A stretch of 64,000 bases of DNA, taken from Prauserella aidingensis. Its GTDB lineage: Bacteria > Actinomycetota > Actinomycetes > Mycobacteriales > Pseudonocardiaceae. A program made the translations under genes and the position numbers. A model generated the notes under the pieces. It was not told the origin of the DNA and searched no databases. It saw nothing but the letters and a program-made list of their open reading frames with translations. Below are positions 11,542-59,280 of this stretch, piece after piece; position 1 is the stretch's first letter; every line of letters starts with the position of its first letter. The stretch covers positions 1-64,000 of the forward strand of contig NZ_JAMTCN010000002.1 in the NCBI RefSeq assembly GCF_024171865.1. The letters are read 5' to 3'.

Positions 11542-11625
11542 GTGTTGCGGTTTCCGGGGGCCGTGTTGCGGCTTCGGGGGCGCGTGTTGCAGTTCCCAGG
11601 GGCCGTGGTGCGGACTCGGGGGACC
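11542..11625. repeat. 21-bp repeat array A (4 units)
   Basis: Four exact-length 21-bp units, each beginning GTG(T/G)TGC and containing a G-run near the end, lie between the YqeY-like gene (3' end at 11642) and the GNAT gene. The orientation is GTGTTGCGG on the plus strand. Opposite-orientation array B lies on the far side of the YqeY-like gene. Confidence 0.85.
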
Positions 11626-11641
11626 TGGCCGCTGGACGTGG

Positions 11642-12010
11642 TCAGCCTTCGACGAACCGGGCCAGGACGGTCGCCTCGTAGCGCACGGCGTCGGCAGCCT
11701 CCCGTTGTCCGAGCTCGTCGTACTGTGCCGCGTTGGCCCGCCGTTCCGCGACGGCCTCCCGCACGATGGCCGCGACGTCGTCGGCCGTCAGCTCCCGCCG
11801 GGCGACGTCGGCTGCGCCGACCCCGGACACGGCCCCCGCGACGTTCTCCGATCCCGCATCAGGAGCGGCATGGGCCGGGACTGCCTCGGCGTTGTCGATC
11901 GCGCCGAGTGCGGAGCGCAACGCCGCCGTCGCGCCCTTGTCCTTGGCCTTCATGGCATCTTTCAGCGCCGTTCGCATGGCGGTCCGAAGTGCCGTCGTCT
12001 GTTCCGTCAC
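11642..12010 (-). CDS. GatB/YqeY domain-containing protein
   Basis: This 122-aa protein starts at GTG 12010. It shows the YqeY pattern: a first helix LRTALKDAMKAKDKGATAAL then RSALGAIDNAEAV, a variable loop, then LTADDVAAIVREAVAERRAN and YDELGQREAADAVRYEATVL. The domain is shared with the tail of GatB and may bind tRNA or aminoacyl-tRNA; its role is not settled. A TTACGT hexamer lies 7 nt before the GTG, suggesting a leaderless mRNA. The gene is bracketed by two 21-bp repeat arrays in inverted orientation. Confidence 0.85.
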   Translation of the reverse strand: MTEQTTALRTAMRTALKDAMKAKDKGATAALRSALGAIDNAEAVPAHAAPDAGSENVAGAVSGVGAADVARRELTADDVAAIVREAVAERRANAAQYDELGQREAADAVRYEATVLARFVEG

Positions 12011-12056
12011 CGGCGCAACGTAACAACGCCGCGCCCCGGCCCGCTTCCCGTTTTCG

Positions 12057-12140
12057 GTGCAACACGGCACCCCGAATCCGCAACACGAGCCCCGGGATCC
12101 GCAACACGGGGCCCCGGAACCGCAACACGGGGTCGTCGGG
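12057..12140. repeat. 21-bp repeat array B (4 units)
   Basis: Four 21-bp units with CCGCAACAC on the plus strand run right up to position 12140, the base next to the stop codon of the acyl-CoA ligase (12141-12143). They fill the gap between that stop and the YqeY-like start. Confidence 0.85.
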
Positions 12141-13790
12141 TCAGTCGCGCAGTTGGCGTCGCAGGAGTTTGCCGGTGACGGTCTTGGGCAGTTCGTCGCG
12201 GATCTCCACCCGCCGCGGGTATTTGTACGCCGCCATGCGCTCCTTGCAGAAGGCGACGAGCTCGTCGGGTTCGACGGAACGGCCGGGCCGCAGGCTGACG
12301 AACGCCTTCACCGTCTCGCCGCGGTACTCGTCCGGCACGCCCACGACCGCGGCCTCGCGCACGGCGTCGTGCTCGTACAGCACGTCCTCGACCTCGCGGG
12401 GCCACACCTTGTAGCCCCCGGCGTTGATCTGGTCCTTCTTCCTGTCGACGAGGTAGAACCAGCCGTCGGCGTCCATGTAGCCGACGTCGCCGGTGTGCAG
12501 CTCGCCGCCGGGGAGGGCGTTCGCCGTCTCCTCGGGTTTGTTCCAGTAGCCGGGCACGACCTGCGGGCCGGACGTCACGAGCTCGCCGACCTCGCCCGGA
12601 GGCAGGTCGCGCCCGTCGTCGCCGACGACGCGCACCACGGTGTCGAACACCGGCACGCCCACGGACAGCGCGCCCGACGTCGGGTCGACCGGCGCGTCGG
12701 CACCCCTGGGCACGCCGTGTGACGGCGACGTGGTCTCGGTGAGGCCGTAGACGTTGTTGATGTAGTGGCCGAACGTCTCCTGGAACGCCTTCACGGTGCT
12801 CGGCGGGATCGGGGCGCCGCCGGAGTAGACGTTCGTCAGGCCGGCCAGCGCGTCCTTCTCGGCGTTCGGCGCGTTCATCAACGCGATGAACACCGTGATC
12901 GAACCGGCGGCGAACGTGACCCGCTCGTCCCGGATCGTCTCGATCGTCACCTCCGGGTCGAACCGGTACAGCAGCACCAGCGGAGCCCCGGTGAGCAGGG
13001 ACAACGCGACATGACCGATCAGGCCCGTGATGTGGAACAGCGGTGCGACACCCAGAACGACGTCGCCCGAGTCGATGCCGATCCAGGCGCGGAAGGTCTG
13101 CGCGTTGAACACCACGTTCCGGTGGGTGTTCATCGCGCCCTTGGGCGGCCCGGTCGTGCCGGAGGTGTAGGTCAGGAGGGCCACGTCGTCGGGCTGCAGT
13201 CGCACCGCAGGAGGCGCGCTACCCCGGAACCGCTCGAGCATCGTCGACATGTCGATGGTGCCGTCGCAGTCGACGCGTTCGATCCCGCCGAGCACGCGCT
13301 GGTCGCCGCGTGTCTGGTACTCGAGCTCCGACGTCGTGATCACGGTGCGCACCTCGGTGCGTGGCAGCACGGAGCTCGCCACGTCGCGGTACAGCCCTTC
13401 CAGGCACATCAGCACGCTCGCACCCGAGTCGGACAGGATGAGTTCGAGCTCCCGCTCGCGGTTCATCGGGTTGACCGACACCGCGATACCGCCCGCCTTC
13501 CATGTGCCGAGCTGGGCGATGACGAACTGCGGCACGTTCTGCGCGTAGATCGCGACCCGCTCGCCCGCCGTGAACCCCGTGTCGGCGAGGCCCGCGGCGA
13601 ACGCGTCGGACAGCTCGTCCAGTTCCTGCGCGCTGATGCGGCCGTCGAAGTAGCGGATCGCGTCGCCGTCGGGATCGCGGGCGACCGTGGCCGCGAACAT
13701 GTCCACCGTGTTGTCGAACTCGACCGTGAGCCCGCTCGGCAACCCCTCGGGGTAGAGCGCGAGCCACGGTTTCTCGTCGTAGACGCCCAT
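12141..13790 (-). CDS. AMP-dependent acyl-CoA synthetase/ligase
   Basis: This 549-aa member of the ANL superfamily activates a carboxylic acid with ATP and CoA. The P-loop-like motif A3, LLTYTSGTTGPPKGA, lies around residue 205, with the A5 motif VYGLTETTSPS, A7 ELHTGDVGYMDADGWFYLVD, A8 RKKDQINAGGYKVWPREVE, and the catalytic lysine in PKTVTGKLLRR near the C-terminus. Length fits medium/long-chain fatty acyl-CoA ligases; the true substrate cannot be read. The start ATG 13790 lies 4 nt after the stop of a small cyclase remnant, suggesting translational coupling to that remnant's ribosome-binding site. Confidence 0.9.
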   Translation of the reverse strand: MGVYDEKPWLALYPEGLPSGLTVEFDNTVDMFAATVARDPDGDAIRYFDGRISAQELDELSDAFAAGLADTGFTAGERVAIYAQNVPQFVIAQLGTWKAGGIAVSVNPMNRERELELILSDSGASVLMCLEGLYRDVASSVLPRTEVRTVITTSELEYQTRGDQRVLGGIERVDCDGTIDMSTMLERFRGSAPPAVRLQPDDVALLTYTSGTTGPPKGAMNTHRNVVFNAQTFRAWIGIDSGDVVLGVAPLFHITGLIGHVALSLLTGAPLVLLYRFDPEVTIETIRDERVTFAAGSITVFIALMNAPNAEKDALAGLTNVYSGGAPIPPSTVKAFQETFGHYINNVYGLTETTSPSHGVPRGADAPVDPTSGALSVGVPVFDTVVRVVGDDGRDLPPGEVGELVTSGPQVVPGYWNKPEETANALPGGELHTGDVGYMDADGWFYLVDRKKDQINAGGYKVWPREVEDVLYEHDAVREAAVVGVPDEYRGETVKAFVSLRPGRSVEPDELVAFCKERMAAYKYPRRVEIRDELPKTVTGKLLRRQLRD

Positions 13791-13794
13791 GAGC

Positions 13795-17516: not shown

Positions 17517-18071
17517 ATGCCGATGTCCGATATGGACACCGTCGACGAACAGGGCCGGACAGAGCCTCCGCTGGAGGGCGGGGAGGAGGACCAGCTGCTC
17601 GGCTTTCTCGACTATCAGCGGCAGACACTCGAGTGGAAGTGTTCGCGGCTGGGCGATGAAGCCCTGCGCGCGACGACGTCGGCCTCTGCGATGACCCTGG
17701 GTGGGCTGCTCAAGCACATGGCTTTCGTCGAGGATCACTGGTTCTCGCGCAGGCTGCACGGCCTGCCTGCCGAGCTGCCGTGGGATGCGGTCGACTGGGC
17801 CCGCGATCCGGACTGGGACTGGCGCAGCGCAGCGGACGACACTCCGGAGCAGTTGCTGGCTCTGTGGAAGGATGCCGTGGACGCCTCGCGCAGGCTCACC
17901 GCGGAGGCGCTCGCCGACGGCGGCTTCGAACGGCTCGCCGACGCCCCCTGGCCGGACGGGCGCGCGCCCAATCTGCGGTGGATCGTGCTGCACATGATCG
18001 AGGAGTACGCCCGCCACAACGGCCACGCCGACCTGCTGCGGGAGTCGATCGACGGCGAGACCGGCGAATGA
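17517..18071 (+). CDS. DinB/DUF664-family metal-dependent protein
   Basis: This 184-aa four-helix-bundle protein of the DinB superfamily has MTLGGLLKHMAFVEDHWFSR and RWIVLHMIEEYARHNGHADL, which supply the three conserved metal-binding histidines. These proteins are probable thiol-dependent transferases or detoxifying enzymes in mycothiol producers. GAGGAG lies 9 nt before ATG 17517 (a second ATG at 17523 is possible). Its stop overlaps the next start (ATGA at 18068), so the two genes are translationally coupled. Confidence 0.88.
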   Translation: MPMSDMDTVDEQGRTEPPLEGGEEDQLLGFLDYQRQTLEWKCSRLGDEALRATTSASAMTLGGLLKHMAFVEDHWFSRRLHGLPAELPWDAVDWARDPDWDWRSAADDTPEQLLALWKDAVDASRRLTAEALADGGFERLADAPWPDGRAPNLRWIVLHMIEEYARHNGHADLLRESIDGETGE

Positions 18072-18466
18072 GCCGCACGGGAGCGCTGCACCACCTCGAA
18101 CTGTGGGTCGGGGACCTCGCCGCGGCCGAACGGGAGTGGGGCTGGCTGCTCGGCGAGCTCGGCTACGTGTGCGCCGACCGTTGGCGTGACGGCCAGAGCT
18201 GGCGCCATCCGACGTCCGGCTACGTCGTGCTGGAGGCGGGCCCGGACCGTTCCGGTGACCACGACCGGCTGCGCGCGGGCATGAACCATGTGGCGTTCTG
18301 GGCCGGGGCGCGTGCCGACGTCGACCGACTCGCCGCCGAGGCGCCCGCCCACGGTTGGCGGCTGCTGTTCGCCGACCGCCATCCCTACGCGGGCGGCCCC
18401 GACCACTACGGCGCGTTCCTCGAGAACGGCGAGGGCTTCGAGGTCGAACTCGTCGCGGAGGCGTGA
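18068..18466 (+). CDS. VOC-superfamily (glyoxalase-like) protein
   Basis: This 132-aa single vicinal-oxygen-chelate domain has LHHLELWVGDLAAAEREWGW at the start, MNHVAFWAGARADVDRLAAE in the middle, and AFLENGEGFEVELVAE at the end, giving His/His/Glu metal ligands. It is coupled to the DinB-fold gene by a 4-bp ATGA overlap; both families act on small electrophiles or antibiotics, so a joint detoxification function is likely (inference). The first 21-bp repeat unit begins 13 nt after its stop. Confidence 0.88.
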   Translation: MSRTGALHHLELWVGDLAAAEREWGWLLGELGYVCADRWRDGQSWRHPTSGYVVLEAGPDRSGDHDRLRAGMNHVAFWAGARADVDRLAAEAPAHGWRLLFADRHPYAGGPDHYGAFLENGEGFEVELVAEA

Positions 18467-18478: not shown

Positions 18479-18620
18479 GCGCAACACGCGCCCCTGAATG
18501 CGCAACACGAGCCCCCGGAACCGCAACACGGCCCCGCGAATGCGCAACACGCGCTTCCGGAAGTCGCAACACGACCCCCTGGAACCGCAACACGGGCCCC
18601 TGGATGCGCAACACGCGGGG
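18479..18620. repeat. 21-bp repeat array C (7 units)
   Basis: Seven units with core CGCAACACG run from 13 nt after the VOC stop. Six keep the 21-bp spacing; one has an extra base. Orientation is CGCAACACG on plus. Opposite-orientation array D lies 210 bp further on. Confidence 0.85.
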
Positions 18621-18632
18621 AAAGGGAAAGGG

Positions 18633-18669
18633 GGCGCCGGCCCTTGCTGGGGGTCCAAGGGCCGGCGCC
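18633..18669 (+). terminator. 14-bp perfect hairpin after array C
   Basis: GGCGCCGGCCCTTG and CAAGGGCCGGCGCC pair perfectly around a 9-nt loop, 13 nt after the repeat array. It is a likely terminator of the DinB-VOC transcript, without a T tract. The ~500 bp from here to nhaA contain only array D and no gene I can support. Confidence 0.7.
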
Positions 18670-18830
18670 GGCGCGCCCTCTGGGGGAGGGGAGGGTGCGC
18701 ACGTGGAAAGAGTGACCCCGCGGCCGTCCATGACGCACACCCACGAAACTCACCCGGATGAGTGATGGGTTCGGAGCGAGCCGCCGTACGTCCGCGGCCG
18801 ACCACCGCCCGTCCCCTGAACACGACCGCC

Positions 18831-18872
18831 GTGTTGCGGTTTCGGGGGCGCGTGTTGTGGATCCCGGGGCCC
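18831..18872. repeat. 21-bp repeat array D (2 units)
   Basis: Two consecutive units, GTGTTGCGG and GTGTTGTGG cores, lie in the long leader region of nhaA, about 300 bp before the gene. Its orientation is opposite to array C. Confidence 0.75.
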
Positions 18873-19172
18873 GTGGCGGCGGGCTCGGCTCGGCCGAGGT
18901 GTGCACAGCGTGACCGTGGCGTCGCCGTGCGTCCTGCTCACAGCGCGCGAGCGGGCACAGAGGTACATGTCACAGGGTGTCACCGGATAGCGCGCGTACC
19001 GTCGACATCCGGCGAAACGACCTGGTCACCATGTCAAGTCGCAGCAGTTCGCGCTCGGCCGAGACGCCGTCGAGGGACTAGTGTTCCTGTGCGCGGCCAC
19101 TATCCTGGCGGCCAGGTGCGCCGGGAAGTCTGGTCGGCAATGGTCTTGACCGCTGCCTTCCCTGGAGTGTGA

Positions 19173-20489
19173 ATGTCGCAATCGTCTTCCCACGACTACG
19201 ACACGTTCGGTCGCGGATCGTGGTCGGAGACCCGCCGGATCGGTAACATCCTGCGCAAGGAGACCGTCGGCGGTGCGCTGCTGATCATCGGCGCCGTGCT
19301 CGCGCTGATCTGGGCGAACTCGCCCTGGTCAGAGGCGTATCAGTCGATGGTGTCGTACAAGATCGGCCCGGAGACGCTGCACCTGGATCTGACGATCGCC
19401 CACTGGGCTTCCGACGGCCTGCTGGCGATCTTCTTCTTCGTCGTCGGCCTCGAGCTCAAACGCGAGTTCGTCGCCGGTGACCTGCGGGACATCCGCAAGG
19501 CGATCGTGCCGGTCGTCGCCGCGATCGGCGGTGTCATCGCTCCGGCCCTGATCTACGTCGCCTTCAACGTCGGCGGCGCGATGGAGGGCTGGGCCATCCC
19601 GACGGCCACGGACATCGCGTTCGCGGTGGCCATCCTCGCGGTCGCCGGGCCGTTCCTGCCCGCCGCGCTGCGCATGTTCCTGCTGACGCTCGCGGTCGTC
19701 GACGACCTCATCGCGATCATGATCATCGCGATCTTTTTCACCGACGACCTGGCGATCGTTCCGCTGCTGCTCGCGCTCGTCCCGCTGGGCATCTTCACGT
19801 TCCTGGTGCAGAAGCGGGTGCGCTCGTGGTACCTGCTGCTGCCACTCGCCATCGTGACCTGGGCGCTCGTCCACGCGTCCGGTGTGCACGCGACCATCGC
19901 GGGTGTCGCGCTCGGCATGGTCGTTCCGGTGATCCGCAGCGAGAAGGCGGGAGGCCCGGACGCCGGTCCCGGCCTCGCCGAGCACTTCGAGCACCGCTTC
20001 CGCCCGCTGTCGGCGGGTGTCGCCGTGCCGATCTTCGCCTTCATGGCGGCCGGTGTGCCGATCGGCGGGTTCTCGGGCCTGATCGAGTCCTGGCAGGAGC
20101 CGGTCTCGCTGGGCGTCATGGCCGGTCTCGTGCTCGGTAAGACCATCGGCATCGTCGGCGGTACGTGGCTCGCCACGAAGCTCACCGGGGGCCGCATGGC
20201 CGAAGGGCTCAACTGGATCGACGCCGTCGGACTCGCCCTGCTCGGCGGCATCGGCTTCACGGTGAGTCTGCTCATCGGCGAACTCGCCTTCGGCGCAGGT
20301 ACGCCACAGGACGACCATGTCCGCATCGCGATCCTCTCCGGTTCGATCCTGGCCGCCCTGCTGGGCACGGCCATACTCCGGGCACGCAACCGCGTGTACA
20401 AGCGGATCCACGAGTTGGAGAACCGGGACGAGGACGCCGACGGCGTGCCTGACGTCTACCAGACCGGACGCGACGACTCGTCGAAGTGA
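19173..20489 (+). CDS. nhaA: Na+/H+ antiporter NhaA
   Basis: This 438-aa polytopic inner-membrane protein exchanges Na+ (or Li+) for protons. NhaA landmarks are present: [20 protein letters not shown] (TM1), [20 protein letters not shown] (TM2), [13 protein letters not shown] with T146-D147, [20 protein letters not shown] with the D177-D178 transport pair, and [19 protein letters not shown] 19173 is preceded by GGAG. A perfect 14-bp terminator follows the stop at once. The ~300-bp gene-free leader is longer than usual and holds repeat array D. Confidence 0.96.
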
Positions 20490-23130: not shown

Positions 23131-24533
23131 CATGGCTGGGAAGCCCGACCTTCCCCGACGCCGCCCGCCGTTCCCTGGGCGACACGCAACTGCGCGGCAA
23201 CCTCCGCAAGGCCACCACGACCATCCGGGGCAAACGTGAGTCCGCTGTAGCCGAGCTGGACGACTGGGAGCAGCTCCGCAGGGCGGGTGAGGCCGTCAAG
23301 GACGACGTGCTGGCGAACCTCGACACCTACCTGGAACGCCTCGAGGCCGCCGTCAGCGAACGCGGCGGCGTCGTGCACTGGGCGCGGGACGCCGAGGAGG
23401 CCAACCGCATCGTGCTCGACCTCGTCCGGCAGGAGGACGCCGACGAGGTCGTCAAGGTCAAGTCGATGGCCACCGCGGAGATCGGGCTCAACGAGGCGCT
23501 CGCCGACGGCGGGGTCGACGCGATCGAGACCGACCTCGCCGAGGTGATCGTCCAGCTGGGCGAGGACAGGCCGTCCCACATCCTCGTCCCGGCGATCCAT
23601 CGCAACCGCGCGGAGATCAAGGAGATCTTCGCGCAGATGCCCGACCCGCCGGACTCCGACGACCCCCGCGCGCTCGCCGAGGCCGCCCGCAAGTACCTGC
23701 GCCGCAAATTCCTGTCCGCCAAGGTCGCCATCTCCGGGGCGAACTTCGGCGTGGCCGACACGGGGTCGATCGTCGTGGTCGAGTCCGAGGGGAACGGCCG
23801 GATGTGCCTGACCCTCCCGGAAACGCTCATCACCGTGATGGGCGTCGAGAAGGTTCTGCCACGCTGGCAGGACCTCGAGGTGTTCCTCCAGCTGTTGCCG
23901 CGATCGTCCACGGCGGAACGGATGAACCCGTACACGTCGATCTGGTCCGGCGTGACCCCCGGCGACGGTCCGCAGAAGTTCCACCTGGTGCTGTTGGACA
24001 ACGGCCGCACGTCGACGTTGGCCGACGAGGTCGGACGGCAGGCGCTGCGGTGCATCCGGTGTTCGGCGTGCCTGAACGTCTGCCCGGTGTACGAGCGCAC
24101 AGGCGGCCAGGCGTACGGGTCGGTCTACCCGGGACCGATCGGGGCGATCCTCGCCCCACAGCTGGCCGGCGATCTGCACGACGAACAGGCCGCCTCCCTG
24201 CCGTACGCGTCGTCGCTGTGCGGAGCGTGCTACGAGGTCTGTCCTGTTCGGATCAATATTCCCGAGGTGCTGACACACCTGCGCGCGGAAGTGGTGGAGG
24301 CGAAGGGAAAGCGAACGCCCGAGGCGATGGCGATGTCGGCCGCCGCGTGGGTGTTCGGAAGCCGCAGGCGCTACGAGGCGGCGCAGAAGGCCGGGTCGCT
24401 CACGCGGTTGCTGGCGCGCGGTGGCAATCTGTCGTCGCTGCCGTGGCCCGGTTCGAAGTGGACGGACACCCGCGACGCGCCCGTGGTGCCGAAGGAATCG
24501 TTCCGCACCTGGTGGAGGCGTAATCGTGGGTAG
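23112..24533 (+). CDS. lutB: LutB-like iron-sulphur subunit, L-lactate utilisation
   Basis: This 473-aa protein starts at GTG 23112 behind AGGAGG. Residues ~60-310 are the LUD domain (VKVKSMATAEIGLNEAL, ISGANFGVADTGSIVVVESE), followed by two ferredoxin-type clusters: CIRCSACLNVCPVY and CGACYEVCPVRIN, each binding [4Fe-4S]. The order, length and overlap with lutA and lutC match the lutABC operon of B. subtilis and actinobacteria. LldF is a synonym. Confidence 0.94.
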   Translation: MGRNPVTWLGSPTFPDAARRSLGDTQLRGNLRKATTTIRGKRESAVAELDDWEQLRRAGEAVKDDVLANLDTYLERLEAAVSERGGVVHWARDAEEANRIVLDLVRQEDADEVVKVKSMATAEIGLNEALADGGVDAIETDLAEVIVQLGEDRPSHILVPAIHRNRAEIKEIFAQMPDPPDSDDPRALAEAARKYLRRKFLSAKVAISGANFGVADTGSIVVVESEGNGRMCLTLPETLITVMGVEKVLPRWQDLEVFLQLLPRSSTAERMNPYTSIWSGVTPGDGPQKFHLVLLDNGRTSTLADEVGRQALRCIRCSACLNVCPVYERTGGQAYGSVYPGPIGAILAPQLAGDLHDEQAASLPYASSLCGACYEVCPVRINIPEVLTHLRAEVVEAKGKRTPEAMAMSAAAWVFGSRRRYEAAQKAGSLTRLLARGGNLSSLPWPGSKWTDTRDAPVVPKESFRTWWRRNRG

Positions 24534-25128
24534 TGCGCGCGACGAGATCCTCGGCCGCATCCGGGCCGTCGAGCGCCCCGAGTCGCCCCCGGCGCCCCGG
24601 GACTACGACAGGGTGCGGCACGCCGACGACCCCGTCGCCCTGCTGGCCGAACGTATCGCCGACTACCGGGCCACCGTGTACCGGGCTGCCGCGCGGGAAC
24701 TGCCGTACCGGATCGCCGAACGCCTCGACGGCCGCGGAACGATCGCCGCGCCTGCGGACGTCCCCGGGGAATGGCGGGTTCCCGGGGTGTCGTGGCTGAC
24801 CGACGATCCGCCGCTCGGAGTGTCCGATCTGGAGGAAGCCGACGGTGTGCTGAGCGGCTGCGCCGTCGCGATCGCCGAGACCGGCACCATCGTGCTCGAC
24901 GCCGGCCGAGCACAGGGCAGGCGCGTGCTGACGCTCGTGCCCGACTACCACCTGTGTGTCGTGCACGCCGACCAGATCGTGGTGAGCGTCCCGGAGGCGA
25001 TCGAACGGCTCGATCCCGCGGGCCCGTTGACGTTCATCAGCGGACCGTCCGCCACCAGCGACATCGAACTCGACCGCGTCGAAGGCGTCCACGGCCCGCG
25101 CACCCTGGAAGTCCTGCTGGCCGCCTGA
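24526..25128 (+). CDS. lutC: LutC-like LUD-domain subunit, L-lactate utilisation
   Basis: This 200-aa protein starts at GTG 24526 with GGTGGAGG upstream and overlaps lutB by 8 bp. It carries the LUD core: GCAVAIAETGTIVLDAG, RRVLTLVPDYHLCVVHADQI and TFISGPSATSDIELDRVEGV, as in LutC/YkgG. It completes the lactate oxidation complex. No lactate permease or lut regulator is adjacent. The next element is repeat array E, 29 nt after the stop. Confidence 0.94.
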   Translation: MGSARDEILGRIRAVERPESPPAPRDYDRVRHADDPVALLAERIADYRATVYRAAARELPYRIAERLDGRGTIAAPADVPGEWRVPGVSWLTDDPPLGVSDLEEADGVLSGCAVAIAETGTIVLDAGRAQGRRVLTLVPDYHLCVVHADQIVVSVPEAIERLDPAGPLTFISGPSATSDIELDRVEGVHGPRTLEVLLAA

Positions 25129-25157
25129 CCTCGCGCGTGCCCGGCACCCAGCCCCGC

Positions 25158-25241
25158 GTGTTGCACTCTCGGGAGACCGTGTTGCAGATCCCGGGGCTCG
25201 TGTTGCGGATTCCGGGTGCCGTGTTGCGCATCCGGGGCGTG
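25158..25241. repeat. 21-bp repeat array E (4 units)
   Basis: Four 21-bp GTGTTGC units fill the gap between the convergent lutC and nitroreductase genes, ending 1 nt before the latter's stop codon (25243). The opposite-orientation array F flanks the other side of the nitroreductase/TetR pair. Confidence 0.85.
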
Positions 25242-26567: not shown

Positions 26568-26708
26568 CCGCAACACGGGCACCCGAATCCGCAACACGGT
26601 CCCCTGAACCCGCAACGCGGCCACCCGAACCCGCAACGCGGCCACCCGAACCCGCAACACGGCCACCCGAATCCGCAACACGGTCCCCTGAAGCCGCAAC
26701 ACGGGCCA
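26568..26708. repeat. 21-bp repeat array F (7 units)
   Basis: Seven regular 21-bp units with CCGCAAC(A/G)CGG fill the convergent gap between the TetR and IclR genes. This is the most regular array in the window: units 3 and 4 are identical. Confidence 0.88.
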
Positions 26709-44399: not shown

Positions 44400-46319
44400 A
44401 TGCGTGCCGTGACCGCATTCTCCAGACGCGCGACGCGGGTCGTCTCGGCACTCTCCGCGACAGCGGTGGCCGGTTCACTCGCGCTCGCGACCCCAGCCAG
44501 CGCACAGACCACAGAACGCGAGCAGGCCCCGGAGGCGGCCGCCGACACCCGCATCCACGACGTCCAGGGCACCGGGCGAATCTCCCCGATGGACGGCGAG
44601 ACCGTCACCGTGCCCGGCATCGTCACCGCCAAGCGCCAGTTCGGCAGCGTCCGCGGCTTCTGGGTGCAGGACCCGCAGCCCGACGACGACCCGCGTACGA
44701 GCGAGGCGCTGTTCGTCTACAACGGCGACGAGACCCCGGACGTGACCGTCGGTGACGAGGTGTCGGTCACCGGCGAGGTGAGCGAGTACCGGCCGCAGGG
44801 ACAGGACTCGGCGTTCCAGACCTCGACGCAGCTGGGCGACGCCGAGTGGACCGTCGCCTCGTCGGGCAACGAACTGCCCGAGGCCGTCGAGCTGACCCCG
44901 GACGCCGTGCCGGACTCGCTCGCGCCCGAGGAGGGCAATCTCGAGGAGTTCGAGCTCCGGCCCGACAAGTACGCGCTGGACTTCTGGGAGGCCCACGAGG
45001 GCGAGCGCGTGTCGGTGGCCGACGCGCCGCTGGTCAGCCGCAGCACGGATTACAACGAGCTGTACGTGACCACCAAGCCCGAGCGCAGCCGCACTCCGCG
45101 GGGCGGGGTCGTCTACGGCGACTACGACGCGCCCAACACCGGGCTGCTGAAGATCGAGTCGCTGCTCCCGTTCTCCGAGCACCCGTTCCCGACGGCGGAC
45201 GTCGGCGACACGCTCACCGCCGCCACCGCGGGTCCGCTCGAGTACGACCAGTACGGCGGTTACACGCTGCAGGCCACCGAACTGGGCGAGGTCGAGAGCG
45301 GCGGCCTCGAACGCGAGACGACGCGCACGCAGAACCCGAGCGAGCTCTCGGTCTCGACGTACAACGTCGAGAACCTGTCCGCCGTCGACAAGCAGGCGAA
45401 GTTCGACGACCTCGCCGGGGGAGTCGTGAAGCACCTGCGGTCGCCGGACGTCGTGACGTTGGAGGAGATCCAGGACAACAACGGCGCCGACGGCAACGGC
45501 GACGGGGTCGTGGCGGCCGACAAGACGCTCGACAGGTTCGTCGAGGCGATCGAGGCCGCGGGCGGTCCGGCCTACGAGTACCGCCAGATCGACCCGCAGG
45601 ACCGCACCGACGGCGGCCAGCCGGGCGGCAACATCCGTGTGGGTTTCCTCTTCGACCCCGAGCGGGTGGCGTTCGTGGACCGTGAGGGCGGTGACGCGAC
45701 GACAGCCGTCGAGGTCGAGAAGACGCGGCGCGGCACGGCGAAGCTGTCGGTGTCGCCGGGCAGGATCGACCCGCAGCACCAGGCGTGGGACGACAGCCGC
45801 AAGCCGCTCGTCGGCGAGTTCGAGTTCCGTGGGCGGACGGTGTTTGTCGTGGCGAACCACTTCGCGTCGAAGGGCGGTGACGAGCCGACCCACGGCCGGT
45901 ACCAGCCGCCGACGCGGTCGTCCGAGGAGCAGCGCCACAAGCAGGCCGAGGTCGTGCGGGGCTTCGTCGACGAGCTGCAGCGAGTGCAGCCGAACGCCAA
46001 CGTGGTCGTCGCCGGGGATCTGAACGACTTCCAGTTCTCCGAGACGCTGGCGACGCTGACCGGCGGCGGGTTGACGTCGCTGATCGACACGCTGCCCGCG
46101 AACGAGCAGTACAGCTACGTCTACGAGGGCAACTCGCAGGTGCTCGACCACATCCTCGTGTCCGGCGCGCTGCGCCGCGTCGACTACGACGTGGTGCGCA
46201 TCAACGCCGAGTTCGCCGAGCAGGCCAGCGACCACGACCCGCAGATCGTGCGCTTCAAGCCGTCAGCCGGGCACGCGCTCGACTTCTGGGACTGGTTCTG
46301 GTGGCCCTTCGATAGGTAG
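44400..46319 (+). CDS. Secreted endonuclease/exonuclease/phosphatase-family nuclease
   Basis: This 639-aa protein has a Sec signal peptide (basic start, VVSALSATAVAGSLALA, cleavage after ASA near residue 36). An OB-like domain (residues ~50-150: VQGTGRISPMDGETVTVPGI) typical of YhcR/ExeM-type extracellular nucleases precedes a catalytic EEP domain from ~315: LSVSTYNVENL, VVTLEEIQDNNGADGNGDG, RVGFLFDPERV, VVANHFASKG, NVVVAGDLNDFQFSETL, SDHDPQIVRF. It likely degrades extracellular DNA. The C-terminus ends in aromatic FWDWFWWPFDR, which may touch the envelope. Confidence 0.9.
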   Translation: MRAVTAFSRRATRVVSALSATAVAGSLALATPASAQTTEREQAPEAAADTRIHDVQGTGRISPMDGETVTVPGIVTAKRQFGSVRGFWVQDPQPDDDPRTSEALFVYNGDETPDVTVGDEVSVTGEVSEYRPQGQDSAFQTSTQLGDAEWTVASSGNELPEAVELTPDAVPDSLAPEEGNLEEFELRPDKYALDFWEAHEGERVSVADAPLVSRSTDYNELYVTTKPERSRTPRGGVVYGDYDAPNTGLLKIESLLPFSEHPFPTADVGDTLTAATAGPLEYDQYGGYTLQATELGEVESGGLERETTRTQNPSELSVSTYNVENLSAVDKQAKFDDLAGGVVKHLRSPDVVTLEEIQDNNGADGNGDGVVAADKTLDRFVEAIEAAGGPAYEYRQIDPQDRTDGGQPGGNIRVGFLFDPERVAFVDREGGDATTAVEVEKTRRGTAKLSVSPGRIDPQHQAWDDSRKPLVGEFEFRGRTVFVVANHFASKGGDEPTHGRYQPPTRSSEEQRHKQAEVVRGFVDELQRVQPNANVVVAGDLNDFQFSETLATLTGGGLTSLIDTLPANEQYSYVYEGNSQVLDHILVSGALRRVDYDVVRINAEFAEQASDHDPQIVRFKPSAGHALDFWDWFWWPFDR

Positions 46320-46379
46320 GCGTTCGTCGGCGCTCCCTGCGCCGAAAGGCGTGCGACACGGCCGGCCGTCCTCGTGGCC

Positions 46380-46442
46380 GTGTTGCGGATCCCGGGGCCC
46401 GTGTTGCGGATCTCGGGGCTCGTGTTGCGGATTCCGGGGACC
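46380..46442. repeat. 21-bp repeat array G (3 units)
   Basis: Three very regular GTGTTGCGGAT units lie between the convergent nuclease and response-regulator genes, ending 2 nt before the latter's stop codon at 46445. Confidence 0.85.
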
Positions 46443-46444: not shown

Positions 46445-47047
46445 TCAGATCCATCCCTCTTGCCACGCGTGGTGCGCGGCCGCGTGCCGGGTCGGGAGGT
46501 CCAGCTTCGTCATGGCCGACGAGAGATAGTTGCGCACCGTGCCGGGAGCGAGGTGTACGTGGTCGGCGATCGCCTGCACCGAGTCGCCGCCGCGCGCGGC
46601 TCGCAGCACGTCGAGTTCACGAGCGGACAGCGGGCAGCTGTCCTCCGTCAGCGCGGAAGCCGCGATCTCGGGGTCGACGTAGCGGTGCCCGGCGGCCACC
46701 CCGCGCAGGATCTCGGCGAGCCGGGCCGCGGGCGTGGTCTTGGGGACGAAGCCACTCACCCCGCTCGCGAGCGCGCGGCGCAGCACCCCGGGGCGCGCGT
46801 GCCGGGTGACGAGCACGATCTGCAGGCCGAGCTCACGGCGAATCTCCTCGGCAGCGACCAGTCCGTCGGCCGGGGGCATCTCCAGATCGAGTACGGCGAT
46901 GTCGGGGCGGTGTTCGCGGGCCTGGGCGACCGCGTCGCTGCCGGTGGCCGCCTCGGCAACCACCTGCAGGTCGTCCTCGAGATCGAGCAGTGCGGCGAGG
47001 GCGCTGCGGACGAGCACCTCGTCGTCGGCCAGCAGCAGGCGAACCAT
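46445..47047 (-). CDS. NarL/LuxR-type response regulator
   Basis: This 200-aa protein has a receiver domain (LLLADDEVLVRSALAALLDL, phospho-acceptor Asp in IAVLDLEMPPADGL, LVTRHARPGVLRRAL, FVPKTTPAARLAEI with the conserved Lys) and a C-terminal LuxR HTH (LSARELDVLRAARGGDSVQA, IADHVHLAPGTVRNYLSSAM). ATG 47047 lies 2 nt after the kinase stop, so the pair is one unit. The divergent ABC exporter genes are its most likely target. Confidence 0.93.
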   Translation of the reverse strand: MVRLLLADDEVLVRSALAALLDLEDDLQVVAEAATGSDAVAQAREHRPDIAVLDLEMPPADGLVAAEEIRRELGLQIVLVTRHARPGVLRRALASGVSGFVPKTTPAARLAEILRGVAAGHRYVDPEIAASALTEDSCPLSARELDVLRAARGGDSVQAIADHVHLAPGTVRNYLSSAMTKLDLPTRHAAAHHAWQEGWI

Positions 47048-48455: not shown

Positions 48456-49409
48456 ATGGACACCACCGAGGACCCTGCAGTCCACGTACGCGGACTGCGC
48501 TGCACCTACGGCACACACGAGGCGGTGCGCGGCGTCGACCTGGACGCACCCCGCGGGGAGTTGCTCGCGGTGCTGGGCACCAACGGGGCGGGCAAGACGA
48601 CGACACTCGAGGCGATGCAGGGCCGCCGCAGGCCCGCAGGCGGCCGCGTGCGGATCCTCGGCCTCGACCCGGCTGGGCAGCGCCGCGCACTGGCCGCGCG
48701 GATCGGCGTCATGTTGCAGGACAGTGCGCTGCCCGCCGAGCTGACGCCCGCCGAGTTCCTCACTCTCTGGAGCCGCTTGAAACGGGACCGGCCCACTCCC
48801 GGGTCGATGCGCGAGCAGCTCACCGCCGTCGGTCTCGCGCACCGCCGGAACGTGCGCATCGGGCGGCTGTCGGGCGGGGAGCGCCGCCGGCTCGACCTCG
48901 CTGTCGCGCTGACCGGCTCCCCCGAGCTCCTGTTCCTCGACGAGCCCACTTCCGGCTTGGACCCCGAGTCACGTGCCGCGACCTGGGAGCTGATCCGGGG
49001 CCTCCTCCGGACCGGTTCCACCATCGTGCTCACCACGCATCACCTGGAAGAGGCCGAGGCGCTGGCGGATCGGCTGCTGATCCTCCACGAGGGCACCGTG
49101 GCCGTCGCGGGCACCTTGTCCGAGATCGTCACCGCGCGCCGCGCCACGATCCGTTACGAGCTCGTCGGGACCGGGCCCGCCGTTCCGGAGTCCGAACTCG
49201 TCGGCAGGGCCTCGGTCACGCCGGAGCGAGGGGTGCGGCTCGTCGAGATCCGCACCCCGGACCTCACCCGGGACCTCGGCACGTTGTTGCGCTGGGCCGA
49301 GACGCAGCGGTCCCAGCTTCATCGGCTGCACAGCAGCGAAGCCACGCTCGCCGAGATCTTCCACGAAATCAGCACCACGCACGTTTCGGAGGAGGCCACG
49401 ACATCATGA
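48456..49409 (+). CDS. ABC exporter ATPase (DrrA/YhfS-like)
   Basis: This 317-aa ATPase has Walker A VLGTNGAGKTTTLEAMQGRR, signature IGRLSGGERRRLDLAVAL, Walker [19 protein letters not shown], and the H-loop VLTTHHLEEAEALADR. A ~90-residue C-terminal extension follows. CAGGCT lies exactly 7 nt before ATG 48456, so it is probably leaderless. It is coupled to the permease gene by an ATGA overlap and is divergent from the two-component system. Confidence 0.92.
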   Translation: MDTTEDPAVHVRGLRCTYGTHEAVRGVDLDAPRGELLAVLGTNGAGKTTTLEAMQGRRRPAGGRVRILGLDPAGQRRALAARIGVMLQDSALPAELTPAEFLTLWSRLKRDRPTPGSMREQLTAVGLAHRRNVRIGRLSGGERRRLDLAVALTGSPELLFLDEPTSGLDPESRAATWELIRGLLRTGSTIVLTTHHLEEAEALADRLLILHEGTVAVAGTLSEIVTARRATIRYELVGTGPAVPESELVGRASVTPERGVRLVEIRTPDLTRDLGTLLRWAETQRSQLHRLHSSEATLAEIFHEISTTHVSEEATTS

Positions 49410-50131
49410 ACGCGACCTTTGCGCTCGCCCGCGCCGAGCTGACCCTGCTCCTGCGAAACCGCACCGCGGCGACGAACGCCCTGCTGCTGCCGCTGGCCCT
49501 CGGAGCGCTGTTCATCGTCAGGCCTCCGCCGACCGGGCTCACCGGAACCGCCGCGTCGATGCTGCTGCTCGCCCTGGTCTGCCTCACCGTCGCGAGCACC
49601 GCGACGACCACGCTGGTCGCCCGGCGCCAGCAGCACCTCCTGCAGCGGTGGCGCACCGCTCCGGTCGCGCCACCGGCGGTGCTGGTGTCCACACTCAGCC
49701 CCGTCGGCGTGCTGTTCGCGGGCCAAGCGGCGGCGCTGCTCACCGTCCTGGCCTACGCCACGAGCTCGATACCGGCCCACCCCGTGCTCCTGGTATTGGC
49801 CGTCGTACTCGCCGGGGCGCTGGGCTGCGCAGTGGCGTTCGTGACGGCCGCGTTCACCCGTACCGTCGAGGCCACCAACTTCACCCTGCTGCCCGTCCTC
49901 GTGGCCCTGGCAGGAGGGGGCGTGTGGGCCACCGCAGCCGCCGGAGAGGTCACCTGGGCGATGCGGGCGACCGGCGGCGGCGCCGTGGCCGAACTCGTCC
50001 ATCTCGGCTGGGGCGGGAGCGAGACCCGGGCCCTGACGGCTGCCGCACCCAGTGTGCTCGTCCTCCTCGCCCTGATCGTCGGAACCACACTGCTGGCGCG
50101 CCGCTACTTCCGCTGGGAGCCGCGCAACTAG
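49406..50131 (+). CDS. ABC-2 type exporter permease
   Basis: This 241-aa protein has six hydrophobic segments in the ABC-2 arrangement: MNATFALARAELTLLLRNRT at the start (amphipathic N-terminal helix), LLLPLALGALFIV, MLLLALVCLTVAS, and a last segment before a short basic tail FRWEPRN. GGAGGAGG precedes ATG 49406 within the end of the ATPase gene. It forms a heteromeric exporter with that ATPase. The substrate is unknown. Confidence 0.88.
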   Translation: MNATFALARAELTLLLRNRTAATNALLLPLALGALFIVRPPPTGLTGTAASMLLLALVCLTVASTATTTLVARRQQHLLQRWRTAPVAPPAVLVSTLSPVGVLFAGQAAALLTVLAYATSSIPAHPVLLVLAVVLAGALGCAVAFVTAAFTRTVEATNFTLLPVLVALAGGGVWATAAAGEVTWAMRATGGGAVAELVHLGWGGSETRALTAAAPSVLVLLALIVGTTLLARRYFRWEPRN

Positions 50132-50198
50132 GGTTCGACGGGTACACGGTCCGGCGGGTGGGCGGTTCGGCGGGTGAGCGCTCGGCGGCAACCGTGCC

Positions 50199-50345
50199 GT
50201 GTTGCGGATCCCGGGGCCCGTGTTGCGTTCTCCGGGACCCGTGTTGCGGGTTCCGGGGATCGTGTTGCGCTTTCCGGACGCCGTGTCGTGGTTTCCGGGG
50301 CGCGTGTTCTGCATTCAGCACGTCGTGTCCTGCGCTCAGGACGCT
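50199..50345. repeat. 21-bp repeat array H (7 units, last three decayed)
   Basis: Seven units in exact 21-bp phase start 67 nt after the permease stop. Units 1-4 keep GTGTTGCG; units 5-7 drift to GTGTCGTG, GTGTTCTG and GTGTCCTG but hold the spacing. The rest of the 370-bp convergent gap (to 50500) shows nothing else. Confidence 0.85.
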
Positions 50346-50500: not shown

Positions 50501-51031
50501 TTACGCCTGGTTCCGGTGCCGCTCTGCCGGGCCGATCCGGTAGCGGGTGTGGAGCATCGCGGGGCTGTCGAGGGTGCGGATCAGGTCGAGCTCGACGTGT
50601 TCGGCGGGCAGGTCGCCGAAGAGTCGGCGGCCCTGCCCGAGCAACACGGGCATGATCTGCAACGACATCTCGTCGAGCTCCCCGGCGTCGAGCAACGCGC
50701 GGGCGGCGGACGCGCGTTGCAGCAGGATATCCCGGTCGCCTGCGGCTTGCCTGGCCCGCGCCGCCGCTTCGTGGACGTCGGTGACGTAGTGGGAGTGCCC
50801 GGGTGCGGGCTGCTCGGGCGCGGACCGGGTGAGCACGAAAATGGGGACGCCGTCGTGGTGGTCGCCGTTCCACCGGTCTGCGTGATCGAAGGTGCGCCTG
50901 CCGGTAAGGACCGCGCCGGTGGCGTGCACTTCGGCCAGGATGCGGCTGCCGGCCTCGTCGGTGGAACGAGCGGTGCTCGGATCGCCGTCGTCGAGTGAGA
51001 GCGTGTCGTGGAGCCATCCGCCGCCTCGCCG
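50501..51031 (-). pseudogene. 5'-truncated dihydrofolate-reductase/RibD-C-family gene
   Basis: The frame is open from 51031 (just after a TGA at 51032-51034) to the stop at 50501. It reads GGGWLHDTLSLDDG, then ILAEVHATGAVLTGRRTFDH, DGVPIFVLTRSAPEQPAP, RDILLQRASAARALLDAGEL and LLGQGRRLFGDLPAEHVEL, the body of the RibD_C/DHFR-like family. The first ~25 residues, which should hold the SLDGF motif, are absent in all three frames upstream. A GTG at 50929 could start a 142-aa product, but this would lack the first strand. Loss of the 5' end lies next to the XRE gene (3' end at 51101), suggesting that its arrival or a deletion cut this gene. Confidence 0.65.
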
Positions 51032-57122: not shown

Positions 57123-57488
57123 GTGGGTGAGTTCGACGTCGTGCCGGGCACCGGGACCGCGAGTGCCTACGACGGCTTCGTCGGCTTCGTCGGCGACAAG
57201 CGGTACCACCCCGGAGCGACGTCCACTCTCGGGCCGCTCGACGAAGGTCCGTACTACGCCGTGGAGCTTCGTATCAGCACCCTCGGAACCAACGGCGGTC
57301 CACAGACCGATGTGGACGGATATGTGTTCACTGTGGATGGAGGCTCGATCCCAGGGCTCTTCGCCGCGGGAAGCGCCATGGCCGGGCCCGCCGGAATGGT
57401 GTACGGCGGGGCGGGCGGCGCGCTCGGTCCCGCGCTCGTGTTCGGATACCGCGCCGGGGGCGCGGCGGCTTCGGGAGGCAGACGATGA
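57123..57488 (+). pseudogene. C-terminal fragment of an FAD-dependent oxidoreductase (KstD/fumarate-reductase type)
   Basis: The frame from GTG 57123 (GGGGAGA upstream) gives 121 aa matching only the end of the FAD_binding_2 family: PYYAVELRISTLGTNGGPQT, DVDGYVFTVDGGSIPGLFAA, GSAMAGPAGMVYGGAGGALG, PALVFGYRAG. Intact relatives are 450-550 aa and begin with a dinucleotide-binding motif, which is absent here. The break lies beside the promoter of the divergent small-protein/ATPase operon. A promoter and ribosome-binding site are nevertheless present, and the stop overlaps the next gene by ATGA, so it may still be translated to couple that gene. Confidence 0.65.
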
Positions 57489-58045
57489 CGGAGGCACTCG
57501 AGCAGCGCATCCAGCGAATCGAGGACAGGACGGCGATCCAGGACCTCGCCGTGCTCTACGGCTACATCATGGACGAACGCGACGAGGACGGGATACGGAA
57601 GATCTTCTGCGAGGACGGGACGTTGCGGTCGGCCGACGGGGTGTTCGCCGCGAACGGCATCGACGAGATCGTGACGACGTACCTCGGCAGATTCAAGGCC
57701 CTCGGCCCGACCAACCACTTCACGCACGGTCACGTCGTGCGGTTCGACGACAACGACCCGGACGTCGCCCACGGCCAGCTCGCGTCGCATGCCGAGGTGG
57801 TCCGCGATGGCAAGGCCATGGTGGTCGCGCTGCGTTACCAGGACGTGTACCGGCGCACGTCGACCGGCTGGCGGTTCGCCGACCGGCTCATGTCGTACAT
57901 GTACTACACCGAGGTCACCGAGTACGCCGACGTCCTCGGCCGCGATCTGCGCGTGCGCGCCTACGGCGACGAACGCCCCGGCGACTGGCCCGAACTGCTC
58001 ACCAAGGGCCACCCACCGGAGTGGCTGACGTCCTACCTCCCCTGA
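57485..58045 (+). CDS. NTF2-like/SnoaL-fold protein
   Basis: This 186-aa protein has a SnoaL-like cone fold: LEQRIQRIEDRTAIQDLAVL, YGYIMDERDEDGIRKIFCED, TNHFTHGHVVRFDDNDPDVA, VALRYQDVYRRTSTGWRFAD. The family includes hydratases, isomerases and aromatic-ring dioxygenase-associated proteins. It overlaps the oxidoreductase fragment (ATGA), which in intact form would suggest a steroid or cyclic ketone pathway (inference). Repeat array I starts 5 nt after its stop. Confidence 0.8.
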   Translation: MTEALEQRIQRIEDRTAIQDLAVLYGYIMDERDEDGIRKIFCEDGTLRSADGVFAANGIDEIVTTYLGRFKALGPTNHFTHGHVVRFDDNDPDVAHGQLASHAEVVRDGKAMVVALRYQDVYRRTSTGWRFADRLMSYMYYTEVTEYADVLGRDLRVRAYGDERPGDWPELLTKGHPPEWLTSYLP

Positions 58046-58050
58046 CTGCC

Positions 58051-58113
58051 GTGTTGCGCCTTCGGGGGATCGTGTTGCGTTTTCCGGGGGTCGTGTTGGG
58101 CCTTCGGGGGCGT
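58051..58113. repeat. 21-bp repeat array I (3 units)
   Basis: Three GTGTTG(C/G)G units in 21-bp phase begin 5 nt after the NTF2-like stop. The remaining ~215 bp before the channel gene show no gene. Confidence 0.82.
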
Positions 58114-58328
58114 GCATCGGTGGGGACGTCCGTGGCGCGCCCTCGTCGCCCGGCCACCAGGCCTCGCGGGAGGCGCCGCGTCCCTGGCCCCTGGCCGTCC
58201 CTGTTCCCGCGGACGTGCGGCCGGGCAGAGGGCTCTGATCACGACCTGCGACGACGTGTCGCCGGTGGCGGTCGGGGTATCCGTACCCGTGACGTGCAGG
58301 TGAGGGCGCGGACTCCGGAGGTCGGGCC

Positions 58329-58877
58329 GTGGGACGAGGGCGATTCGACGAGCTGCCCGCCACTGCGCGCAGACGGCTCGTGGCCGGCGCGGTACTGCGG
58401 ACCGTGCTCAGTGCCGGGCTCGTGATCACCGGGTACTACCTCGTCCCGCTGGACCGCCCGTTCGACGCCGGACCGTGGCTGCGGTTCGGCGTCGCGCTGG
58501 TGGCCTTCGGGGCGGCCGTCGGCTGGCAGCTCAGGGCCGTCGCGATGTCCGACACGCCGCGGTTGAAGGCCGCGCAGCTGGTCGCCGTCGGGTTGCCGCT
58601 GCTGCTCGTGCTCTTCGCGTCGGCCTACGCCGGACTCGACCGGGCTCAGCCGGGAAGCTTCAGTGAGGACCTCGGCCGTACCGATGCGCTGTACTTCACC
58701 GTCACCGTGTTCGCGACGGTCGGCTTCGGCGACATCGTGCCGCGCACCGAGGCTGCGCGGATCCTGACCATGATCCAGATGGCGGTGGGGATCGTCGTGG
58801 TGGGCTTCGCCGCGCGGGCCGTCGTCGGCGCGGTGCGGACCGCCCTGTGCCGCGCCGACCCGGGACCGCCTGCCTAG
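58329..58877 (+). CDS. Two-pore-helix potassium channel protein
   Basis: This 182-aa membrane protein starts at GTG 58329. Hydrophobic segments lie at ~18-40, ~50-68 and ~80-102, followed by a pore loop with selectivity filter TVGFGD (ALYFTVTVFATVGFGDIVPR) and a final helix MIQMAVGIVVVGFAARAVVG. The filter matches K+ channels (TVGYGD/TVGFGD). No RCK/TrkA-N domain follows, so it is a minimal pore of the Ion_trans_2 type, with extra N-terminal helices. Confidence 0.88.
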   Translation: MGRGRFDELPATARRRLVAGAVLRTVLSAGLVITGYYLVPLDRPFDAGPWLRFGVALVAFGAAVGWQLRAVAMSDTPRLKAAQLVAVGLPLLLVLFASAYAGLDRAQPGSFSEDLGRTDALYFTVTVFATVGFGDIVPRTEAARILTMIQMAVGIVVVGFAARAVVGAVRTALCRADPGPPA

Positions 58878-59104
58878 CGCGCCGACGTGGACGTGCGGCC
58901 GAGTGCGACGGCCAGACGTTCGATCGATGTGGGCTCGGTGTCGGGGACGTCGGTGACCGCGAACGGAACGTGCGCCGTGGACGTTCCGAGCGCGGTGCCG
59001 AGGCCACGATGTGCGGTGCCGACCAGGTGCGCCATCAGCGTGCGGACGTCGAGTTCTGTGCAGGGCGTCGCGCCGGTGAGCTGGTCGGTGTCGGTGCCGG
59101 ACAT
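58874..59104 (-). pseudogene. Fragment of a mycothiol-dependent maleylpyruvate isomerase-like (TIGR03086) gene
   Basis: From ATG 59104 the frame gives 76 aa: DQLTGATPCTELDVRTLMAH then LVGTAHRGL, the hallmark TPC-x2-x-DVR-x2-x-HLVG block of the DinB/MDMPI family. Intact members are ~190-200 aa with further helices and metal ligands; here the protein stops at 58874, overlapping the channel stop. Upstream sequence to ~59190 continues the family-like helix in another frame (SADEFRQRLRDYAGA), suggesting a frameshift as well. The 5' end runs into repeat array J. Confidence 0.55.
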
Positions 59105-59203
59105 GAGCGACGACCCAGGCCCTGGCGCCGGCGTAGTCCCGCAGCCGCTGCCGAAACTCGTCGGCGGAGGTCGACGCACCCGCTGACGATCCGGCCCCCG
59201 GAA

Positions 59204-59280
59204 CCGCAACGCGCGCCCCTGAATCCGCAACACGGACCCCTGGATCCGCAACACGGGCTCCGGAATCCGCAACACGGGTG
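59204..59280. repeat. 21-bp repeat array J (4 units)
   Basis: Four CCGCAAC(A/G)CG units in 21-bp phase (the last cut short) lie between the isomerase-like fragment and the copper-type operator. Orientation is opposite to array I, which flanks the channel gene on the other side. Confidence 0.85.

Follow-up and report, generated by a model that had tools for sequence, protein, structure and literature searches.

Phased arrays of a 21-bp repeat at gene ends in Prauserella aidingensis and its relatives

Plasmid iterons are groups of several direct repeats of ~20 bp, set in helical phase and read cooperatively by a protein, and the mycobacterial interspersed repetitive units (MIRU), known from a related family, are dispersed intergenic tandem repeats with units of ~50–100 bp that hold small open reading frames (ORFs). 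Here we describe arrays of a 21-bp repeat that recall both. They were first noticed, in a sequence-only reading, at ten places in a stretch of 64,000 nucleotides from Prauserella aidingensis (positions 1 to 64,000 of contig NZ_JAMTCN010000002.1, hereafter the window). Like iterons they are direct repeats of ~20 bp in helical phase, and like MIRU they are tandem repeats dispersed between genes. However, iterons sit at a replication origin by rep, whereas 65 of our arrays are dispersed over 856 kb of the host genome (rep genes were not searched), and the array unit, at 21 bp, differs from that of MIRU as these are generally defined.

Repetitive extragenic palindromic (REP) elements and bacterial interspersed mosaic elements (BIME), of the GTAG and CGTC super-families, are described in the accessible part of one account as high-copy and intergenic, lying downstream of coding regions and mostly in convergent or co-directional gaps (PMC3733652). 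The arrays share this placement, being extragenic, downstream of genes and in convergent or co-directional gaps. In contrast, they are direct repeats in fixed 21-bp phase whose possible stem arms show no convincing covariation. Nor was the RAYT transposase domain (Y1_Tnp, PF01797) found in the host genome, for which reason we set a REP/RAYT reading aside; one of nine array-rich genomes searched has PF01797. The arrays also differ from clustered regularly interspaced short palindromic repeats (CRISPR), as a consensus (C15, G18) extends to the bases outside the core, where CRISPR would have unique spacers; cas genes were not searched. The separation from REP elements and CRISPR made in the sequence-only reading is supported for the features tested, and because the REP palindrome/RAYT and CRISPR spacer features fail, we file the arrays under dispersed extragenic gene-end repeats.

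The DNA uptake sequences (DUS) of Neisseriaceae, in the available part of their description, have a short shared core, lineage dialects, two dialects in one genome and an association with terminators (PMC3630211). The arrays, too, show lineage dialects around a short core (Y6, Y13 and mostly G17, with a CGWGT anchor imposed by our search), but DUS come as thousands of single words or inverted pairs rather than as direct arrays in phase. Prokaryote satellites are likewise tandem repeats dispersed in intergenic DNA; the accessible part of their survey (Subirana and Messeguer, 2019; PMC6749651) counts 23 satellites in Amycolatopsis mediterranei, names Leptospira interrogans and Methanocella conradii as the only species with transposed satellite families of long repeats, and makes no mention of the present 21-bp unit. 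The corresponding parts of PMC12306157, PMC3733652, PMC3035233 and PMC3630211 hold no description of this repeat, and in the open-access literature searched, mostly without subscription journals, we found neither a published description nor a catalogued repeat of this kind, in line with the earlier remark that no described family fits.

Unit anatomy, phase and placement

The unit of the window arrays (dialect A) reads CGTGTTGCGG-ATTCCGGGGCC on the strand that carries GTGT and CCGCAACACG-GGCCCCGGAAT on the opposite strand. A unit matrix returned the same ten arrays of the window at the places first reported and in 21-bp phase, with 45 units in all (44 with a refined matrix). That they exceed chance is confirmed genome-wide: the pattern CCGCAACAC-N12-CCGCAACAC occurs 173 times in the 5,645,599-base host genome (80 contigs) and its reversal not once, and the matrix finds 65 arrays with 316 units in an 856 kb sample (three stretches of contigs C3, C6 and C9, ~15% of the genome) as against no array in the reversed sequence. 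Arrays hold two to nine units (three to seven in 57 of the 65), and the sample has 16 single units, compared with seven in the reversed control.

Among successive host cores spaced anywhere from 12 to 33 bp apart, with at most one mismatch per core, 223 of 234 stood at exactly 21 bp. In 95 interior host units selected solely by an exact core in both neighbours and read on the C strand, positions 3–10 are 98–100% identical, position 15 is 100% identical and the others 48–94%, with C15 in all 95 and G18 in 89; across 119 host units lying between two exact cores, mean identity is 0.986 at positions 3–10 versus 0.749 elsewhere. The first ten bases (CGTGTCCGCA) and G17 do not vary among the 37 interior units of Saccharomonospora viridis, where every one of 86 steps measures 21 bp; this uniformity of core and step is partly imposed, as the pieces examined were cut around arrays matched by an exact CGTGT 21-step pattern. 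The unit is one fixed helical turn (~10 bp) and one mostly free turn (~11 bp). The variable positions of host units are hardly more alike within an array (0.554; neighbours 0.581) than between arrays (0.524), so recent slippage does not explain the common core. The sequence-only reading had called the units degenerate, which is right for the ~11 bp that vary and wrong for the ~10 bp (CCGCAACACG) that are nearly invariant. Its suggestion that one face of a protein might read successive units fits the split into a fixed and a mostly free turn; that this protein would be a nucleoid protein is a guess.

The arrays are concentrated at the ends of genes, which we called with our own codon-usage caller rather than taking them from an annotation. 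Sixty of the 64 arrays of the host sample that have genes on both sides are intergenic. Thirty of the 60 lie between convergent, 22 between tandem and eight between divergent genes, where random placement in gaps large enough (1000 placements) gives 10.4, 31.2 and 18.5 respectively. Thirty-six are within 30 bp past a stop codon (7.5 at random, with a maximum of 17 in any placement) and three within 30 bp of a start (9.2 at random). The preference for intergenic positions, stop codons and convergent gaps, first noticed in the window (by our gene calls a stop codon lies no more than 28 bp from seven of its ten arrays, and four are flanked by convergent genes), is thus upheld against random placement, and the lack of genome-wide enrichment that would have refuted the sequence-only reading did not appear. 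The same picture returns in S. viridis: among 29 usable of 30 arrays, in pieces cut around them, 13 are convergent, 15 tandem and one divergent, and of the 28 arrays whose distance could be measured, 22 have a stop codon no more than 21 bp away.

Inheritance, dialects and distribution

Arrays are inherited in place. Across Prauserella, 140 of 194 reciprocal orthologous-gap pairs share an array in the same orientation; 12 have one unit, two an array in opposite orientation only, 39 none and one a closed gap, and neither these gap pairs nor the array pairs that follow are independent. Unit number was equal in 32 of 111 orthologous array pairs and differed in 79, by one unit in 46. In the 290 aligned units of these pairs mismatch is 0.039 in the core, 0.271 at other positions and 0.186 in intergenic flanks, and indels per substitution are ~15-fold fewer in arrays than in flanks (0.025 vs 0.370), figures to be read with an aligner whose matrix threshold favours intact cores and which detects 1-bp slips only, and with flanks counted only at ≥ 60% identity. 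The identity of the 119 units and the free spacing count given above serve as threshold-free checks of core and spacing. It appears that selection maintains the core and the spacing, whereas the wording differs between genera.

In Prauserella dialect A is accompanied, in the host genome and in relatives, by a dialect B (GTGTYCTGCRYTCAGSACG; CGTGTCCTGCACTCAGCCACG); in the host, 45 of 60 A–B offsets are multiples of 21. No exact dialect A pair occurs in the relative G149, which has 331 CGTGT triples of a dialect C (CGTGTCAGCATCCCGCGTCGC) instead. For three of five G149 arrays in a syntenic block, at least one Prauserella carries an A array of like orientation at that gene end; for the other two, none does. 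These three dialect-swap loci (host gap 11461–11642, with four relatives; rugosa 10082; rugosa 10854) carry different dialects at the same spot and in the same orientation, and the wording has therefore changed in place. Eight dialect sets from seven genera, aligned on CGWGT, have CGWGTY-N6-Y-N3-G in common, with frequencies of 0.93–1.00 for Y6, 0.93–1.00 for Y13 and 0.53–1.00 (mean 0.90) for G17; the CGWGT anchor is imposed by the search, positions 6, 13 and 17 are outside the search pattern, and some of the consensuses are built on 4–17 units only.

Within the family, CGTGT-N16 repeated three times has a match in 67 of 249 genomes and CGAGT-N16 repeated three times in 93. At least ten matches with one or the other are found, by our own tally, in 59 of the 249 genomes and 16 of 46 genera, a count to be read beside the genomes that reach ten in the reversed control (G137 and G160 with CGTGT; G041, G084, G130 and G245 with CGAGT) and beside G129 and G144, each with ten CGAGT matches on a single strand that may belong to one array. 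In a draw of 396 genomes across the phylum, searched with CGTGT only, 13 including the host had any match, the others three at most. As exact anchors miss dialects with other anchors, those of Bacillota for example, a list of array-free genera is not firm. A motif-free tandem-repeat scan gave 21 as the leading non-coding offset in five of eight samples (host, G149, G186, G238 and G077, the last although no CGTGT is present), as the second in G003 and as neither in G021 and G123; few of a further 16 samples of 20–80 kb show the 21 offset. Over named genomes the three-unit pattern matched at least 97 stretches, and 43 of the 80 loci listed are from Prauserella (rugosa, halophila, alba, isguenensis and salsuginis). 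Two other genera have arrays of a 22-bp unit (GTGTTGGCCGTT... at L250, genome G086; GTGTCGGACGTT... at L239, genome G019), possibly a relative with a different step.

Of the 37 non-Prauserella loci listed we inspected 27, which were mostly 7-bp GCAACAC runs or near-identical 21-bp repeats. The GCAACAC runs (L041, L050, L078, L082, L109, L117 and L119, in Chloroflexi, Alcanivorax, Mucilaginibacter and other genomes) are a simple repeat of another kind, which will match any pattern of 21 bp, and L054, L089, L093, L098 and L110, which look like ordinary satellites or coding repeats, were set aside. Two Bacillota genomes have arrays with a 21-bp step that are not 7-bp runs: Sporosarcina quadrami (L068, 6272–6437) and Psychrobacillus sp. 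(L080, 83–451; L102, 3437–3659). Here CGCAACACTT or CGCAACACAA recurs every 21 bp in gaps at gene ends; whole-genome core pairs number seven and 19 respectively, with none for the reversed pattern, and the two bases after the core, outside the pattern, are AA in seven of seven and TT in 19 of 19 first units. Again ~10 bases are fixed and ~11 free, and each genome uses a single wording. Judged from simple ORFs, convergent genes flank the arrays of L068 and L102, and the L080 array is 91 bp past the stop of a minus-strand gene; a classical stem-loop with a T run follows the L068 array. The data fit a common origin of the Bacillota and actinomycete arrays and convergence alike.

The ten arrays of the window and nearby features

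Array 1 (11530–11613, four units, GTGT on the plus strand) stands 28 bp past the stop of a minus-strand gene (11642–12010). Its place and orientation are kept in isguenensis, salsuginis, alba and G067, G149 has dialect C there, and no counterpart was found in rugosa. Array 2 (12057–12140, four units, GTGT on the minus strand) adjoins the stop of the minus-strand gene 12141–13790 and is kept in place, with two to four units, in isguenensis, G067, salsuginis and alba; no counterpart was found in rugosa or G149. Array 3 (18479–18605, GTGT on the minus strand), which lies 12 bp beyond the stop codon of the plus-strand gene 18068–18466, has six units with a seventh core after them and holds one 1-bp slip, the single break in its 21-bp phase. 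Array 4 (18819–18872, GTGT on the plus strand; two units, three by the first matrix) lies within the long gap upstream of an nhaA-like gene at 19173, and no counterpart was found among the five relatives having both anchors.

Further along, four arrays are on the plus strand. Array 5 (25146–25241, four units) separates the convergent genes 24526–25128 (plus) and 25243–25701 (minus) and is present in four relatives, rugosa and G149 falling outside the comparison as they have no usable anchors. Array 7 (46368–46442, three units), between convergent genes 44400–46319 (plus) and 46445–47047 (minus), and array 8, between 49406–50131 (plus) and 50501–50929 (minus), are each present in G067, the sole anchored relative. 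Array 8 has a dialect A part (50187–50303) and a dialect B part (50304–50345) of two units, GTGTTCTGCATTCAGCACGTC and GTGTCCTGCGCTCAGGACGCT, in phase with the A units. The core had first been described as drifted over 50283–50345 with its spacing held; the phase is indeed held, but the units at 50304–50345 match dialect B, which recurs in the host and relatives, and so need not be decay. Array 9 (58039–58113, three units) begins at the stop of the plus-strand gene 57485–58045 and is kept in place in isguenensis, salsuginis and alba (three units each) and in rugosa (nine units).

The remaining two are on the minus strand. Array 6 (26568–26714, seven units) lies between convergent genes 25835–26521 (plus) and 26723–27502 (minus); it is present in salsuginis and alba, the gap has shrunk to 18 bp in isguenensis, and three relatives are without anchors. 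Array 10 (59204–59287, four units) lies, by our own gene calls, between 58874–59104 (minus), which is weakly called, and 59401–60090 (plus); its orientation is kept in isguenensis, salsuginis and rugosa, and alba has one unit.

Rfam 15 at gathering score gives nothing at the arrays, its only matches in the window being three tRNAs. Two further features lie near array 4. In 18990–19172 the final ~100 bases before the nhaA-like gene (19173–20489) are near-identical in six species (GCCGGGAAGTCTGGTCGGCAATGG...GACCGCTGCCTTCCC) while the remaining gap has diverged. The stretch recurs before the same gene in L138, L141, L144, L149 and L150; although Rfam gives no match to it at gathering score, it could be the leader of the message, in the form of a structured RNA. 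At 18625–18675 a strong stem-loop (GGCGCCGGCCCTTG...CAAGGGCCGGCGCC) adjoins a stretch like CTCCCCTCCCCCAGAGGG and recurs in the equivalent gap of relatives. Elsewhere, a 17-bp repeat (CGTGGTTCCCCGATCGA, 5.2 copies) occupies 36170–36257 between the divergent genes 35081–36091 and 36273–36896.

What the arrays may do

We tentatively read the arrays as gene-end operators for a co-evolving, sequence-specific DNA-binding protein, a proposal to which we give somewhat less than an even chance. The two to nine copies of an array (mostly three to seven) would form the operator, each copy offering a fixed turn of ~10 bp that starts CG[T/A]GTY in the family and a second, mostly free turn in which a pyrimidine and, for most dialects, a G are kept. 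With one fixed turn per 21-bp unit, successive fixed turns fall on the same side of the DNA, and we infer a protein that would load cooperatively on that face, with a protomer or a dimer for every 21 bp. The resulting patch would serve as a mark of the gene's 3′ end, most probably by making RNA polymerase stop or pause, and would thereby limit read-through and collisions between convergent genes. Anatomy, phase, the slower change of the core, placement, inheritance and dialects are what the data show; the protein, its cooperativity and its effect on transcription belong to the proposal. A role in ending or insulating transcription is probable, and the class suggests a reader of gene ends. The specificity of the protein would drift between lineages and the arrays would follow, giving the dialects. 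More doubtful is a fuller version, in which the protein would polymerise along the phased operators that follow hundreds of stop codons, serve as terminator or insulator, and change its specificity between lineages together with all its operators, in place. Since two Bacillota genomes share plan and core, the reader may be an old protein common to Actinomycetota and Bacillota. One candidate is WhiA, whose motif GACAC is the complement of GTGTC; it was found in one copy in each of 16 genomes searched, five of them array-poor, and its presence therefore does not explain the distribution within the family, leaving it neither supported nor refuted.

Convergent gaps with an array (masked) less often contain a strong stem-loop outside it than those without (4 of 26 vs 34 of 79, p = 0.017), which speaks for the proposal. 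This deficit is suggestive only, because length matching lowers the expectation (0.30, vs 0.15 seen) and tandem gaps show no difference (3 of 21 vs 35 of 243). Other observations, too, weigh against the operator proposal. Only 27 of 106 convergent gaps of 60–2000 bp in the host sample have an array and 190 of 249 family genomes have fewer than ten matches, so the element is not essential, and its location at 3′ ends could be mere tolerance. Among the matches listed, A–B offsets are multiples of 21 in 0 of 23 cases in salsuginis and 2 of 16 in alba; G17 falls to 0.53 in G238, and dialect B has C at this position. The variable positions of S. viridis units are more alike within arrays than between them (0.665 vs 0.521), a local homogeneity. 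Finally, 28 of 39 host arrays carry GTGT on the coding strand of whichever gene has its stop nearest (28:11, p = 0.0095, counted core-symmetrically, as unequal array ends inflate the count to 35:7). The bias divides into 17:8 in convergent (p = 0.11) and 11:3 in tandem gaps (p = 0.06), neither significant alone; sense to antisense in tandem gaps is 16:6 in the host (p = 0.05), 10:5 in S. viridis and 26:11 pooled (p = 0.02). A symmetric DNA patch would not need such a bias.

It is this modest bias relative to the adjoining gene that keeps in play an RNA element, in which the transcribed GUGU strand of the 3′ untranslated region would bind an RNA-binding protein or fold and so end or stabilise the message. 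We consider this unlikely. Agreeing with it are the closeness of arrays to stop codons (36 of 60 within 30 bp), the 28:11 and pooled 26:11 ratios, and fold energies slightly below those of shuffles (z = −1.26 for the host GTGT strand, −1.51 and −2.01 in S. viridis, and −0.66 in control gaps). However, little excess folding is seen: the z-scores are small, that of the other host strand being −0.44, and the predicted folds vary between dialects, for which reason we rejected an RNA hairpin as such. Positions 1 and 11, the arms of the dialect A stem CCG-CAACA-CGG, show no convincing covariation, what covariation there is between positions coming mostly from subfamily mixture, and a fixed 21-nt step would suit a helix better than single-stranded RNA.

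Rather unlikely, too, is a supercoiling or nucleoid element, that is, a patch bound by gyrase or a nucleoid protein where transcription accumulates twist. The enrichment in convergent gaps (30 vs 10.4 expected) speaks for it, as does the uneven chromosomal spread in S. viridis: among the matches listed (100 of 103, grouped by hand into 53 arrays), the half of the chromosome across from position 1 has 12 of the 53 arrays (p = 8e-5), and 1.39–3.18 Mb, an interval chosen after seeing the data, has four where 22 would be expected. A link with gyrase is proposed for REP elements in the accessible part of PMC3733652. A fixed 10-bp core with lineage dialects would nevertheless point to a dedicated reader rather than gyrase.

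The arrays might instead be selfish or neutral repeats, spread ancestrally by a mobiliser and tolerated only past gene ends; we think this improbable. Intergenic, promoter-avoiding placement is typical of tolerated repeats, there are hundreds of copies, 79 of the 111 orthologous pairs are unequal in number of units, and S. viridis arrays have the local homogeneity noted above. Yet orthologous copies retain core and phase, the threshold-free check agrees, the host shows almost no local homogeneity, and RAYT, as said, is absent from the host and present in one of nine array-rich genomes. Least of all do we credit words for uptake or lineage recognition, which dialects around a short core and gene-end placement might recall (DUS dialects, in the available part of PMC3630211), since the copies are arrays rather than single words (65 arrays vs 16 singletons, seven when reversed) and units number hundreds per genome, not thousands.

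If the operator proposal is true, many actinomycetes would rely on phased arrays of protein-binding sites to end their genes, and the hundreds of operators in each genome would jointly have tracked a changing specificity. This would be a natural experiment in how a DNA reader and its sites co-evolve, and would offer a way into transcription termination in high-GC bacteria. Whatever its function, a repeat class whose core and phase change slowly and which is present in 59 of 249 family genomes (at least ten matches) merits annotation, because its arrays can pass for other repeats or for regulatory motifs.

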